Part shown: in pieces, positions 13,937 through 23,534 of the stretch
Position numbering within the stretch: the first letter of the stretch is position 1
How the letters are laid out: each line of letters opens with the position of its first letter
Virus record (IMG/VR): IMGVR_UViG_3300013132_000265
Location: 1-23,570 of that record
Direction: 5' to 3' (one strand)
Length of the DNA stretch: 23,570 nucleotides
From: a virus
Made by a program: the position numbers and the translations under genes
Notes under the pieces: model-generated
Told to the model about the DNA's origin: nothing
Database searches by the model: none
The model's input: only the letters and a program-made list of their open reading frames with translations

Positions 13937-13970
13937 AGCCTGATCTCGTAAATCAGGCTTTTTCTTTTTG
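13937..13970 (+). terminator. Hairpin at cII/O junction, terminator on plus strand
   Basis: AGCCTGAT-CTCGTAA-ATCAGGCT (13937-13959), a perfect 8-bp stem followed by TTTTCTTTTT on the plus strand. On the minus strand only TATTC follows, so leftward operon transcription should mostly pass. It overlaps the stop codon of the CII gene. Confidence 0.7.
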
Positions 13971-14432
13971 TGTGAATTTATGCATTTGCTTGTTTAAAGC
14001 CATATCCGCTGCTTTAGCGTTTTCAATAATGCGATTAAGAATTTCGCTCGCTTCCGCATACTCTTGTGGCGTCACCATGCCATCTTCCAAAACCTCATAA
14101 ACCTTTTGATTGGCTTTTCCAGTTTCAGAATTCATTTGAAGCAATGCTTCCACGATAGTCATCTGACGATGTGTGCCTTCGCCACCTGCTGGCATAAGAA
14201 CAAAACCAAGCATGTGCGCCCAAACTTTCAAAACAACCGGGTTTTGGGTCAAAAGCATAATTGCTTCAAACTTCTTAAGACTTGGATCATGGTTTTCCAT
14301 ATTTGGATTGCCATAGTTACAAATCGTCTTGTGAGCATCACCAGTGACTTGAGCAATATCCTTTGGATCAAATCCTTCAGACTGATTAATCATCTGATGA
14401 ATCGCTATTCTTGTTTCTTTCTTTAGAATCAT
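13953..14432 (-). CDS. Phage regulatory protein CII (CP76 family)
   Basis: 159 residues. The N-terminal half resembles Phage_CP76: AIHQMINQSEGFDPKDIAQVTGDAHKTICNYGNP with a helix-turn-helix, then HDPSLKKFEAIMLLTQNPVVLKVWAHMLGFVL. CP76 proteins are DNA-binding regulators that favour lysogeny or control early promoters. It is the second gene after cro, as cII in lambda, though of a different fold class. AGGGATT precedes the ATG by about 6 nt. The C-terminal part (about 95-159) is helical. Confidence 0.8.
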   Translation of the reverse strand: MILKKETRIAIHQMINQSEGFDPKDIAQVTGDAHKTICNYGNPNMENHDPSLKKFEAIMLLTQNPVVLKVWAHMLGFVLMPAGGEGTHRQMTIVEALLQMNSETGKANQKVYEVLEDGMVTPQEYAEASEILNRIIENAKAADMALNKQMHKFTQKEKA

Positions 14433-14780: not shown

Positions 14781-15470
14781 ATGAGTACCCTTCAAGAAAG
14801 AATGGCCCAAGCAAAAGCGCACTACGAAAAAGTGACAGGTAGGAAATTTAGAAACACTGACTTGGCCGAGCATGTTGGGGTTAGCAAGGTGAATGTTGGG
14901 CTATGGCTTAAGGGTCCAACTCAAGAGATTGGTGGATCTAATTTAGTTAAGGCTGCTGCTTATTTAAAGGTTAATTCACGGTGGTTGGCGGGTGAAAAAG
15001 CACCTATGACTTTAGAGGCCTCACAACTTGATAACAATATCGATTTAACTCAGAAAATAAATATCGAGGGTCGCCCTGTTCCTGTTATCTCATGGGTAGC
15101 TGCTGGCTCATTTGAGCCGATCGAGACTGTTTTAAAAGATGCGGAGATCGAGGAGCACCTTCCCCCAATTAAAGAGTGTGGCAAGAATGGCTATGGATTG
15201 GTGGTTGTTGGTAATTCAATGAAGCCAGACTTTAAACCAGGTGATCGTATTTATGTAAATCCAGATATTCAAACATTCGATTTACAAACAGATGATTTAG
15301 TTATCATTGCTTGTAGTGGTGAGAGCGAAGCTACTTTTAAGAAGCTTATTATTGAAGGCGGGGACAAGTATCTTCAGCCACTTAACCCAGATTGGCCTGA
15401 GCAGATTATCAAGCTGACAGAAGATTGCCGCTTAGTTGGTAAAGTTGTTGGCTTATACAGAAAAATCTAA
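14781..15470 (+). CDS. cI: CI repressor, LexA-like self-cleaving (S24)
   Basis: 229 residues. Helix-turn-helix at about residues 26-45 (DLAEHVGVSKVNVGLWLKG). The C-terminal S24 domain has the cleavage pair Ala108-Gly109 (SWVAAGSFEP), catalytic Ser146 (VVGNSMKPDFKPGD) and Lys187 (EATFKKL). All residues needed for RecA-stimulated self-cleavage are present, so the prophage should be inducible by DNA damage. It maintains lysogeny by binding the operators between it and cro and those at 18578-18644. The ribosome binding site is poor, as is common for cI messages from the maintenance promoter. A hairpin follows the stop. Confidence 0.95.
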   Translation: MSTLQERMAQAKAHYEKVTGRKFRNTDLAEHVGVSKVNVGLWLKGPTQEIGGSNLVKAAAYLKVNSRWLAGEKAPMTLEASQLDNNIDLTQKINIEGRPVPVISWVAAGSFEPIETVLKDAEIEEHLPPIKECGKNGYGLVVVGNSMKPDFKPGDRIYVNPDIQTFDLQTDDLVIIACSGESEATFKKLIIEGGDKYLQPLNPDWPEQIIKLTEDCRLVGKVVGLYRKI

Positions 15471-15570: not shown

Positions 15571-17511
15571 ATGGAACAACAAAATTTATTTGAAGCTAGG
15601 TACGACTCGAGATTTCTTGATAACTTCCTCGGTAATATGGCTAAGGACCCAATCATTGCTATTACAGAACTATTAGCTAACGCCTTCGATGCTGGATCTA
15701 CAGAGGTTTATATATCTTGGCCAAAAAACAAAGAGTTATCTAATCCTATCTTTAAAATACATGATAACGGTAAAGGACTAACCTTAGATGAATTTAAAAA
15801 AATATGGAGTAAATTAAATTACAATCGAATAGAGAATCAGGGTAGCACGGTGAGCATACTTGATGAGAACGGTAAGGTAATTGAAAAACGTGATGTTTTT
15901 GGAAAAAATGGTAAAGGGCGCTTCTCTGCATTCTGCTTTAATGATTATTACGAAGTAGTATCTTCTAAAAATGAGGAAACATTTTCAGCAAAAGTATCTA
16001 AATCTACAGAAACTGACACCTCCCCACTATTGATAACAAATATAAAAAATCTTACACCTAATTTAAAACCAGGCATCACAATTGCCACACCAATAAAATA
16101 TTTAGATCACTTTATCGATGAAGATGAGTTAAGGAAAGAATTAAGTGCGCGCTTTATATCTAGACCAACATTTAAAATTTATATAAATAAAAAACAGTTA
16201 AGTCTAAATGACATCCCAGCAGAATGTATTATAGAAAGAGAAGTTGAATTTAAAAACAATACGATAAAAGTACGTCTTATAGATACAAACAAAATTGATA
16301 CTTCAACAAAACAACGAGGGGTTGCTTGGTGGGTTAAAGGAAGGTTGGTCGGCGGGATTAACTGGAGCTTCCTAAAAAACTTTGATGAGTTTGACCAAAG
16401 AAAATCCGCTGCTAAAAAGATGAATCTGATCATCGAAGCTGACTGTCTTCACTCTCTAAATTTAGTTTTAGATGATTGGTCTGGCTTTGACTTGCAGAGT
16501 GATTTATGGTTGGAATTTGAAGATATTATGATTCCATTCATAAAAAATTTAATGCAAGAACCAATTGTAAAGTCTCAAAGAGAAAAAGCGAATAAGATTC
16601 TTAGTGCTGTGCGCACAAATACAAATTCATTAAGCCGTCTATCAAAATCCAAAGTTACTACTTTTGTTGATGAGACAGTAAGTCTATGCCCCACACTATC
16701 TGAGAAAGACCTATATAACATAACCAACATATTGATAAATTTAGAAAAATCATCCAATAAGTTTAATTTATTACAAAAATTAGCTAATATTTCTTCAGAT
16801 GAGTTAGATAAACTAAATTCAATATTAGAAGACTGGGGTGTGAGTATGGCTAAAATTATACTCGATGAAATTGAGGGACGTTTAAAAACTATTGCAGAAT
16901 TCGAATCAAGAATAAATATTATTGGGGTAAAAGAGGTTCAGGAATTACAAACTCTTTTTAATAATGGATTATGGATGTTTGGTGCTAATTTTGAGGCTAT
17001 TGATTTTAGTTCAAACAAAGGAATGTCTAAAGTATTTAAGAGTCTATTTGGAATTCAGCAAAAAGGATCTTTGAATAGACCGGACTTCGTGATAATTCCT
17101 GAAGCTTACACACGACCTAAATTTGATGACGAAAATCATGAAGAGATTGGAATTGATCATGTTGTTATTGTGGATTTAAAGACCACAGGTTTAATGCTTG
17201 GTAGTGATGAAAAGGATCAAATTTGGAAATATGTTAAAGAATTGGAATCTAAAGGTGCTATTTCAAAAACAACTAAAGTTCATGGCTTTATATTGGGTGA
17301 TAAAATTGAAAGTGGAGAAAATTCACCACGTAAAGAATGGAATGATCATGTTGTAATTACTCCGATTCTATATACAACCCTGCTCTCTAGAGCCAAAAAT
17401 AGAATGTTAAATCTATCAGATAAAGTCTCATCTGCAGCAGTATTGAAAAGTCATCTTAATAATGAACAGCGACGTTTAGATGAAATCTATAACCAAGGTC
17501 TGCCTGTTTGA
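15571..17511 (+). CDS. GHKL ATPase fused to PD-(D/E)XK (Shedu/DUF4263-like) nuclease, putative anti-phage protein
   Basis: 646 residues. The N-terminal HSP90/MutL-type ATPase has an N-box ITELLANAFDAG (Glu33, Asn37, Asp40), G1 box HDNGKG (64-69) and G2 box GKNGKGRF (111-118). Residues about 130-330 look like a transducer domain with a basic KQRGVAWWVKGRLVGG segment. The middle (330-450) is helical. The C-terminal part has LWMFGANFEAID, then RPDFVI (Asp505), VVIVDLKTTG (Asp535, Lys537) and DQIWKY (Gln550, Tyr554). This is the D...DxK...Qx3Y pattern of PD-(D/E)XK enzymes and resembles the Shedu nuclease. Gene position matches lambda rexAB (after cI, before the opposite early operon), it is A/T-rich, and it has a GAAGAG ribosome binding site and a downstream terminator. 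ATP-gated nuclease acting on invading DNA is inference. Confidence 0.82.
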   Translation: MEQQNLFEARYDSRFLDNFLGNMAKDPIIAITELLANAFDAGSTEVYISWPKNKELSNPIFKIHDNGKGLTLDEFKKIWSKLNYNRIENQGSTVSILDENGKVIEKRDVFGKNGKGRFSAFCFNDYYEVVSSKNEETFSAKVSKSTETDTSPLLITNIKNLTPNLKPGITIATPIKYLDHFIDEDELRKELSARFISRPTFKIYINKKQLSLNDIPAECIIEREVEFKNNTIKVRLIDTNKIDTSTKQRGVAWWVKGRLVGGINWSFLKNFDEFDQRKSAAKKMNLIIEADCLHSLNLVLDDWSGFDLQSDLWLEFEDIMIPFIKNLMQEPIVKSQREKANKILSAVRTNTNSLSRLSKSKVTTFVDETVSLCPTLSEKDLYNITNILINLEKSSNKFNLLQKLANISSDELDKLNSILEDWGVSMAKIILDEIEGRLKTIAEFESRINIIGVKEVQELQTLFNNGLWMFGANFEAIDFSSNKGMSKVFKSLFGIQQKGSLNRPDFVIIPEAYTRPKFDDENHEEIGIDHVVIVDLKTTGLMLGSDEKDQIWKYVKELESKGAISKTTKVHGFILGDKIESGENSPRKEWNDHVVITPILYTTLLSRAKNRMLNLSDKVSSAAVLKSHLNNEQRRLDEIYNQGLPV

Positions 17512-17533
17512 TTATTTACAACACATAATATTG

Positions 17534-17560
17534 CCCACCTCAGCGGTGGGTTTTCTTTTT
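17534..17560 (+). terminator. Terminator after ATPase-nuclease gene
   Basis: CCCACC-TCAGC-GGTGGG (17534-17550) followed by TTTTCTTTTT. Confidence 0.92.
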
Positions 17561-17608: not shown

Positions 17609-17944
17609 ATGAAGCACATCACGTTTATCACCCTACTCTTATCTTTAGCTTTTACCGGCTGCCAAAAGCAACAAGCTGCTGATGTCGATCTGGATGCAGT
17701 GACCACTGCCCTGGAAAAGTCAGACAACATTCTCGGTATATATATTGAAAAACTAAATTCAGAATTCACGACACAAGATGTGCGGGTAAAGATCTTATGC
17801 AGAGACTACCCGCGCGAGTATGAAAAAAACTATATGCCTAACTTATTGAAGCTATCACCTGGTGAATACTCTAAAGTTGCACTTTTGACTGATATGGATT
17901 TGGTTTTGGATCACTACAAAGAGAAAGATTCTATTCAGTGCTAA
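17609..17944 (+). CDS. Small lipoprotein, unknown (cargo)
   Basis: 111 residues from MKHITFITLLLSLAFTGC. A type II signal peptide with the lipid-modified Cys at residue 18 (AFTGC; Phe at -3 is unusual but tolerated). The mature part is small, acidic and helical with two further Cys (ILCRDYPREYE and a C-terminal DSIQC), which might form a disulfide in the periplasm. A longer frame begins at 17480, inside the upstream gene and terminator, and is not likely. It has its own -10 and terminator: a free-standing lysogenic-conversion gene. No family recognised. Confidence 0.72.
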   Translation: MKHITFITLLLSLAFTGCQKQQAADVDLDAVTTALEKSDNILGIYIEKLNSEFTTQDVRVKILCRDYPREYEKNYMPNLLKLSPGEYSKVALLTDMDLVLDHYKEKDSIQC

Positions 17945-18152: not shown

Positions 18153-18506
18153 ATGAAATATTTGTTAGGTGCAGCATTGTTAGGATTAGCGATTACTGGC
18201 TGTACTTCAAATCCAAAAAACGAAGCGGTGCAAGAAAAAGTTGTGAGCAATACTCCAGCTGAAACTCAGGTAATTAACTTTACTGGTCCAATGGATCTTA
18301 CAGTTGAATTGAAATCTTCAGATAATTTTGAAACCGCAGAAATGACAGATAATTCTGGCAAGGTTTATCACCTTAAACGAGCTATTTCAGGAAGTGGTAT
18401 GCGTTTGGCCAATGATGACGGCGTTTCAATTCACTTCAAAGCTGGTGAAGGTATTGTAGAGTTTATGAAAGACAAACCCATCAGTATTACTGAATACAAA
18501 AAATAA
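18153..18506 (+). CDS. Lipoprotein, possibly MliC-like lysozyme-inhibitor fold
   Basis: 117 residues. Signal peptide MKYLLGAALLGLAITGC with lipobox AITGC and Cys17. After a Ser/Thr/Glu linker (18-40) a beta-rich domain contains EMTDNSGKVYHLKRAISGSGMRL then DGVSIHFKAGEGIVEF. The SGSG(M)R element followed by a Lys-Gly strand resembles MliC/PliC inhibitors of c-type lysozyme (SASGARY in typical members), but the disulfide Cys of MliC are absent; similarity is weak. Good ribosome binding site (AAAGGTAAG). Upstream are an inverted repeat and Zur-like box, downstream a terminator. A cell-envelope role for the lysogen is likely. Confidence 0.7.
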   Translation: MKYLLGAALLGLAITGCTSNPKNEAVQEKVVSNTPAETQVINFTGPMDLTVELKSSDNFETAEMTDNSGKVYHLKRAISGSGMRLANDDGVSIHFKAGEGIVEFMKDKPISITEYKK

Positions 18507-18724: not shown

Positions 18725-18964
18725 ATGAACAAAAACCCTATTCAAAGCAACTTGCCAGAGTTCGGCCAGTCAAGCATGACTTCTGAGCGTTTGCGTCAAC
18801 ATCCGGTTCCGACACCTAAACCACATTGGCTGAGTAACTTCTCTGCATTGTTGCTCCTTATCTCTATCTTCATCGGTCTAGCTGCTATGTTTACCTATGC
18901 AGCGGATCAGGAAGCTGCTTATCAAGCTGAAGCGATTGCTAAGGCCGTTGGGGGTGCAAAATGA
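18725..18964 (+). CDS. Small single-helix membrane protein, first gene of rightward operon
   Basis: 79 residues from the ATG at 18725 (GAGTGA upstream); an in-frame GTG at 18710 is an alternative. The N-terminus is polar and Pro-rich (residues 1-35), then comes one membrane helix (about 36-59, LSNFSALLLLISIFIGLAAMF) and a short Ala/Glu-rich tail. The stop overlaps the next start (ATGA). First gene under pL, where lambda has N; it has no Arg-rich motif, so it is not an N-type antiterminator. Function unknown. Confidence 0.75.
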   Translation: MNKNPIQSNLPEFGQSSMTSERLRQHPVPTPKPHWLSNFSALLLLISIFIGLAAMFTYAADQEAAYQAEAIAKAVGGAK

Positions 18965-19497
18965 TTTTAAATTCTGCTGATCAAATTTTTGAAGCACTCC
19001 TGAATGGCCAATCGGTCTACTGGTGTGAGTGTGGCTCTAATGACTGGTCTCCTTTAAATGATCGAACTCAAATTAATTTTGTGGACCTTTACACTGGTTT
19101 CCTGCAATTCAAAGCAGATGAGCTACCTGTAGTGCCAATGCCGATTGAGTTCAACTCAACTCATCGCTATTTCTCTGAATACATCAAGACCTTTGAAGGA
19201 CTTGAAATCTATCGAGTGGGTAAAACCCGTGCAAGCTATTTTGCCCTACGTGTCAAAAGTTCAGGAACTATTTCTGACTATTTCTGCAATACGCAGATCT
19301 ACTCCATTCAGTCTAATGGTTCATTGAAGAAGATGGATAAATCTCTTACTCCGCAGTGGATCTTAGATGGATTAGAAAATGCGCGTGTTGCTATGCGCAA
19401 GAACAAGCGTCATCAAATTTTGGAAAATACCGGCTTCTTTGCATCTGAAGACTATAAGAACTTTAAGCGCAATAACCGTCCTGCAGGAGTACGTTGA
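18961..19497 (+). CDS. Unknown protein sharing an N-terminal domain with the gene at 20617
   Basis: 178 residues. It begins MILNSADQIFEALLNGQSVY; the gene at 20617 begins MKILNSKEAFEAMMAGRNIM. The first ~50 residues of both share ILNS-x-[E/Q]-x-F-E-A-[L/M]-x-x-G followed by a short W/F-D-x-L segment, so they carry a common small domain, perhaps a DNA- or partner-binding module. The remainder is mixed alpha/beta with a basic C-terminus (RKNKRHQ and FKRNNRPAGVR). Stop-start spacing to the ATPase gene is 1 bp. Function unknown; likely linked to the recombination ATPase. Confidence 0.75.
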   Translation: MILNSADQIFEALLNGQSVYWCECGSNDWSPLNDRTQINFVDLYTGFLQFKADELPVVPMPIEFNSTHRYFSEYIKTFEGLEIYRVGKTRASYFALRVKSSGTISDYFCNTQIYSIQSNGSLKKMDKSLTPQWILDGLENARVAMRKNKRHQILENTGFFASEDYKNFKRNNRPAGVR

Positions 19498-23448: not shown

Positions 23449-23534
23449 TGGTGGGGATAGAGAGACTCGAACTCTCACGCCCAGAAGGCGCTGCGACCTG
23501 AACACAGTGCGTCTACCAATTCCGCCATATCCCC
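23449..23534 (-). tRNA. tRNA-Leu(CAG), prophage integration site
   Basis: 86 nt including an encoded CCA. Acceptor stem GGGGATA/TATCCCC, D arm with GGTAGAC, anticodon stem CTGTG/CGCAG around loop TTCAGGT (anticodon CAG), long class II variable arm (CGCC-x5-GGCG) and T arm GAGAG-TTCGAGT-CTCTC. Its 3' end faces the phage genes, so the attachment core is probably in the 3' half. Complete and functional in appearance. Confidence 0.95.

Follow-up and report, generated by a model that had tools for sequence, protein, structure and literature searches.

In phage lambda, the rexAB genes lie directly after the repressor gene. What occupies that position in the Acinetobacter-phage-like record analyzed here (23,570 bases; the window), and what does its product do? 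A first-pass annotation of this DNA had placed the gene in question, a candidate GHKL ATPase fused to a nuclease, between cI and an opposite early operon. This picture stands in part. The CI-type repressor gene lies immediately upstream, and an operon that begins with a CII-like activator and includes O-like and DnaC-like genes diverges on the other strand (Table 1), but the early genes downstream, a Sak4-like gene among them, share the strand of the GHKL-nuclease, as in lambda PL. The gene is A+T-rich, as had been described, with 31.6% GC at 16 to 17 kb versus approximately 35 to 44% around it, and a terminator-like hairpin of its own follows it, again as proposed. A promoter scan returned fewer sites than were found in shuffled sequences and established no promoter. 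The small gene that bounds the slot downstream carries a lipoprotein-like signal, for which its recombination directionality factor (RDF) label is odd.

Table 1. Features of the window and of related prophage loci (positions are those of the window unless a locus is named)
Feature	Position	Strand	Basis or remark
CII-like activator gene that opens the divergent early operon	13953..14432	-	phrog_101, E 3.3e-22
CI-type repressor gene, immediately upstream of the GHKL-nuclease gene	14781..15470	+	phrog_4, E 1.9e-45
GHKL ATPase - PD-(D/E)XK nuclease gene	15571..17511	+	646 aa
GHKL N box, residues 33-41 (E33, N37, D40, A41)	15667..15693	+	invariant, 65/65
GHKL G1 box, residues 65-69 (DNGKG)	15763..15777	+	D65, G67, G69 invariant
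GHKL G2 box, residues 111-117 (GKNGKGR)	15901..15921	+	G111, G114, G116 invariant
Alpha-helical linker, residues ~311-448	16501..16914	+	AlphaFold secondary structure
Predicted PD-(D/E)XK nuclease domain, residues ~455-620 (E475, D505, D535-x-K537, Q550, Y554)	16933..17430	+	conserved residues, predicted fold, profile comparison
Terminator-like hairpin after the GHKL-nuclease gene	17533..17551	+	consensus scan; 3 found in region vs 1.8 expected
Small lipoprotein-like gene, downstream slot boundary	17609..17944	+	kept in sister prophages; PHROG RDF match, E 3.2e-11
Conserved downstream gene	18153..18506	+	phrog_6360; conserved in sister prophages
tRNA-Leu (CAG), right end of window, possible attachment site	23449-23534	-	
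100-aa protein gene	L001:7601-7903, L002:7613-7915, L096:7602-7904, L200:8009-8308, L201:6784-7086		

The start, the stop and both motif sets of the 646-residue open reading frame were verified. In an alignment of 65 homologs, the GHKL residues E33, N37, D40, D65, G67, G69, G111, G114 and G116 are invariant, as are the nuclease residues K537, Q550 and Y554; D505 is kept in 64 of the 65, and position 535 is D or E in all of them. The residues that had been named as an intact GHKL site and a C-terminal nuclease signature within one chain therefore hold in 64 or 65 of 65 sequences, and the alignment adds a further active-site candidate that had been missed, E475 (E in 64/65). Judged by this conservation, the protein carries a full predicted GHKL site and an E-D-(D/E)xK-Q nuclease signature. 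The only Pfam family above its cut-off is HATPase_c_3 (residues 29 to 144; E 2.9e-13), and PHROG 6203, which has no annotated function, matches the N-terminal part (E 5.6e-33). Comparison with the 97% identical prophage copy in L001 shows purifying selection (dN/dS 0.075; nuclease part, 0.056), indicating that the protein is maintained.

Structure prediction agrees with this domain order. We modeled the whole protein with AlphaFold2 from the 65-sequence alignment (mean pLDDT 81; pTM 0.59), and the C-terminal 202 residues separately (pLDDT 81; pTM 0.74). Foldseek matched the predicted N-terminus to Hsp90/TRAP1 and MORC3 structures in the PDB (E approximately 1e-14 to 1e-12), and the model aligns with TRAP1 and MORC3 over about 400 columns, past the ATPase domain, at low TM-scores that do not rate the S5 region separately. 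T4 rIIA-type proteins also appeared among the structural matches, which we read as a shared GHKL fold only. The nuclease fold that had been proposed for the C-terminus was recovered: the top PDB matches are mostly PD-(D/E)XK enzymes, namely N.BspD6I (probability 0.98), BstEII, a cap-snatching endonuclease, EndoMS (0.96) and McrC. Their E-values are modest (0.01 to 0.1 each), and the informative point is the consistent PD-(D/E)XK fold across the predicted matches, not any single E-value. No Shedu structure is among the best 50 Foldseek matches of this domain, and a PDB sequence search with it gave nothing meaningful. By these models, the C-terminus is restriction-nuclease-like and the N-terminus is Hsp90/MORC-like.

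Profile comparison points to a more specific kinship of the nuclease. When the C-terminal family was aligned with 13 Shedu proteins (hhalign), the E-value was 1.5e-5 and the score was 42.6, versus a maximum of 17.8 among 100 column-shuffled templates, and D505, D535-x-K537 and Q550/Y554 coincided with, or were next to, the D, ExK and Q/Y positions of Shedu. By this comparison, the domain is homologous to that of Shedu. Direct domain calls are sparse: the 646-residue protein has no match to Pfam SduA_C (DUF4263) at E≤10 or to the PADLOC SduA models. SduA_C is nonetheless the commonest C-terminal Pfam match among the relatives (13/65, weak, best E 0.0028), and one PADLOC SduA model matches at most 8 of the 65, weakly. 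Most sampled SduA_C proteins differ from ours in being shorter and having no GHKL N-terminus, with the exception of L121/L125.

Two described groups share the whole architecture, and the first-pass statement that no named system has such a fusion was incorrect on their account. The older is paraMORC3, defined in 2008 by Iyer, Abhiman and Aravind as a GHKL and S5 module followed by a C-terminal restriction-endonuclease fold with an E-D-ExK signature, a subset of which is standalone in proteobacteria and Bacteroidetes (PMC2292703). Our protein likewise has intact ATP-binding motifs and a predicted C-terminal restriction-endonuclease-fold nuclease with E475, D505 and D/E535-x-K537, and it may have an S5-like region. 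The sections of the 2008 account drawn on here describe paraMORC3 from sequence only, with many standalone members and no fixed neighbors, and do not mention a prophage site next to cI (PMC2292703). The other is VcSduA of Vibrio cholerae, a GHKL-DUF4263 protein assigned to Shedu type I-D and reported in 2025 to block phages; its activity is abolished by E27A and by K557A, which alter the GHKL glutamate and the nuclease lysine, it is modeled as an entwined clamp-like dimer, and its authors state that proteins of the same organization were formerly called paraMORC3 (PMC12137116). VcSduA and our protein are both encoded by a single gene on a mobile element, with an N-terminal GHKL ATPase, a C-terminal PD-(D/E)XK nuclease and no linked methyltransferase. 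The spacing from the GHKL glutamate to the nuclease lysine is 530 residues in VcSduA and 504 here (493 to 507 in the family), and DUF4263 is recognizable in VcSduA but is not called in our protein, a comparison made with VcSduA as published. Searches for VcSduA orthologs (Pfam SduA_C in Gammaproteobacteria and Enterobacterales samples, and the C-terminal profile) yielded the E27/K557 positions in none of the proteins measured. Since our protein is negative in the Pfam domain test, and the comparison with VcSduA draws on the published description, we do not assign our protein to Shedu type I-D; the best reading is that it would work like VcSduA and paraMORC3 and belongs to that broad kind. WonAB, our first candidate for a known counterpart, was ruled out because WonA is an ABC ATPase and not a GHKL protein (PMC12137116).

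Searching INPHARED phages with the 646-residue protein found no match, and scanning GTDB contigs with the single sequence found no confirmed relative. An alignment-based scan of the GTDB contigs identified 94 relatives, of which 80 were kept. The relatives belong to Proteobacteria, Verrucomicrobia, Planctomycetes, Bacteroidetes, Spirochaetes and the archaeon Methanoperedens. The validated GHKL ATPase and nuclease defense architecture is extended to a broad clade spanning many bacterial phyla and one archaeon. Most of the family profile can be aligned with GHKL-nuclease groups carrying Shedu-like C-termini, and family-profile alignments gave E-values of 6e-47 (L009/L290/L300), 2e-26 (L125/L126) and 5e-22 (L295/L296/L298). 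BbrUII- and HgiDII-type GHKL restriction enzymes resemble our protein in N-terminus and overall layout, and the gene could encode a type II enzyme of this kind, whose partner cytosine methyltransferase marks self DNA. The N-terminus does match NCBIfam restrict_BbrUII (E 1.5e-21), and GHKL relatives of the same layout adjoin DNA cytosine methyltransferases, but at 76.6 bits the match falls far below the cut-off of 550. In a tree of 44 proteins, moreover, the window family forms one clade (support 99/99) apart from the GHKL-nucleases that mostly adjoin such methyltransferases, those of the BbrUII/HgiDII type that we examined included. No C5 methyltransferase is encoded in the 23,570-base record, where the surrounding genes serve phage regulation and replication, and the annotated plasmid neighborhoods of the family contain no adjacent Dcm. 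We regard a restriction enzyme of this type as very improbable. The methylase-free clade also opens to experiment how host DNA might be spared by an ATP-gated nuclease that has no modification to rely on.

The rex-like position proposed for the gene recurs. A GHKL-nuclease gene follows a CI-type repressor gene on the same strand in five prophages, the window and L001, L002, L096 and L097, whose GHKL-nucleases are 97%, 73%, 58% and 57% identical to the window copy, respectively. It comes directly after the repressor in the window and in L097, and one or more small open reading frames intervene in L001, L002 and L096. The repressors of these four other prophages have no or weak resemblance to that of the window; the gene therefore keeps its place behind the repressor across differing immunity types. 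This places a member of the clade in the immunity region of a temperate phage. RexAB of lambda has the same place behind the repressor. RexAB and the RexAB-type systems of prophages exclude other phages, but they consist of two proteins, RexA, which binds DNA, and RexB, which lies in the membrane (PMC12894663), where a single GHKL-nuclease is found here. The window has no RexA/RexB pair at this position, and the terminator-like hairpin sets off the gene that follows.

To view the slot across related prophages, we fetched 69 viral loci sharing the window cI and 32 sharing the downstream gene at 18961-19497, some of them short and not spanning the slot. The only one of these sister loci with the GHKL-nuclease is L195, whose contig is that of L001. 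In 58 cI loci, the first open reading frames downstream of cI form 14 clusters that are unrelated to one another. Pfam identified an HSDR_N nuclease there in L198 and its close relatives L199, L200, L202 and L203, and in L264 a Septu-like pair, an AAA_21 ATPase and, after it, an HNH protein with a weak score. In other sister prophages, the stretch that runs from cI, or from the end of the record, to the conserved lipoprotein gene contains DUF262/GmrSD_N genes (L164, L176 and L178), C5 methylases (L164 and L187), AAA_21 ATPases (L187, L190 and L192) and a RelA/SpoT domain protein (L185); labels of HEPN-like, N6- and Dam-like methylase and DUF1828-like for other slot genes were given by eye only. 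These families are typical of defense and restriction-modification genes, suggesting that the slot after cI is probably a hotspot for defense cargo. The slot contents lie outside the argument of the first-pass annotation, and they are the best independent support for the anti-phage role that it had proposed, which the anti-phage activity of VcSduA, a protein of like architecture, also favors (PMC12137116). If the slot is such a hotspot, sampling the genes after cI in these prophages offers a direct route to new defense systems. A bolder proposal, which we hold tentatively and think somewhat doubtful, is that the cI slot of Acinetobacter-type prophages is an undescribed defense hotspot and that the methylase-free GHKL-nuclease clade is distinct from both VcSduA and the Dcm-linked enzymes, with its own recognition of phage DNA. 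A 100-residue protein (MIATLNKSKTALTINRQEF...) without a Pfam match recurs in the slot beside a GHKL-nuclease or HSDR_N gene (Table 1); it is not a required partner of the GHKL-nuclease, because the window lacks it.

These loci also bear on whether the protein instead serves the phage's own DNA metabolism, in repair, recombination or MutL-like clamp handling of replicating DNA. Its GHKL module is both MutL-like and MORC-like, and the gene lies in a prophage upstream of the Sak4-like recombination gene. A function of this kind is hard to reconcile with a gene that is missing from nearly all fetched sister loci sharing cI or the downstream gene, that has its own terminator-like hairpin, whose relatives are spread over many phyla, on chromosomes and on plasmids, and whose counterparts in the slot resemble defense rather than replication genes. 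We consider it a remote prospect.

Genes near the nonviral relatives are in keeping with a defensive role. The commonest Pfam families listed among 137 neighbors of chromosomal homologs are GmrSD_N, UvrD and Methylase_S, followed by N6_Mtase/HsdM, SduA_C, ResIII and AAA_21, among others, each represented by two or three proteins, and PADLOC called GajB-like and mad5-like genes as well. Plasmid relatives lie near AbiEii, Shedu, UvrD, MmeI and Cas9 genes, and type I restriction-modification genes are found near chromosomal and plasmid relatives. Among the matches listed for 137 proteins from random gammaproteobacterial regions, there were none of those families and two C5 methylases; because this control comes from other genomes and the tables give top matches only, the difference is suggestive only. 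No Pfam family occurs in more than 3 of the 137 neighbors, and no conserved partner gene was found, among the matches listed, as for standalone paraMORC3. On a Rhizobium plasmid (L006:9943-11373), the GHKL-nuclease gene is immediately followed by another gene, annotated as Shedu.

Taken together, the analysis confirms the first-pass observation and supports its interpretation in part, as largely right on function and wrong on novelty. We think it likely that the GHKL-nuclease works like VcSduA, as an autonomous single-gene, ATP-gated anti-phage effector that would cut invading phage nucleic acid. Hsp90/MutL-type GHKL proteins and VcSduA suggest how dimerization, an ATP gate and a DNA substrate might combine: two copies would join by way of their ATP-bound GHKL/S5-like modules and enclose DNA like a clamp, and ATP binding or hydrolysis would license the C-terminal PD-(D/E)XK nuclease to cut the invading nucleic acid. 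A lysogen would express the protein alongside CI, and host and prophage would be protected from other phages. The same protein might instead act by abortive infection, cutting host DNA or RNA and halting growth, as proposed for WonAB, an alternative that differs only in the route of protection. Its Rex-like position after cI fits such an effector, and PD-(D/E)XK effectors, WonB among them, are capable of arresting growth. VcSduA, however, which of the tested proteins has the architecture nearest to ours, gave protection whatever the multiplicity of infection tried, and its authors interpret this as direct restriction, with the host preserved (PMC12137116). By analogy with VcSduA only, we favor direct restriction and regard abortive infection as unlikely, though a more serious contender than the other alternatives.

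Two variant proteins were also encountered. A viral contig (L100:6812-8794) carries the GHKL-nuclease in two open reading frames of 424 and 234 residues, perhaps through a frameshift or as a two-gene form. L127 (G052:C134) encodes a GHKL protein with what appears by eye to be a TIR-like C-terminus, recalling the paraMORC4 of Iyer 2008.
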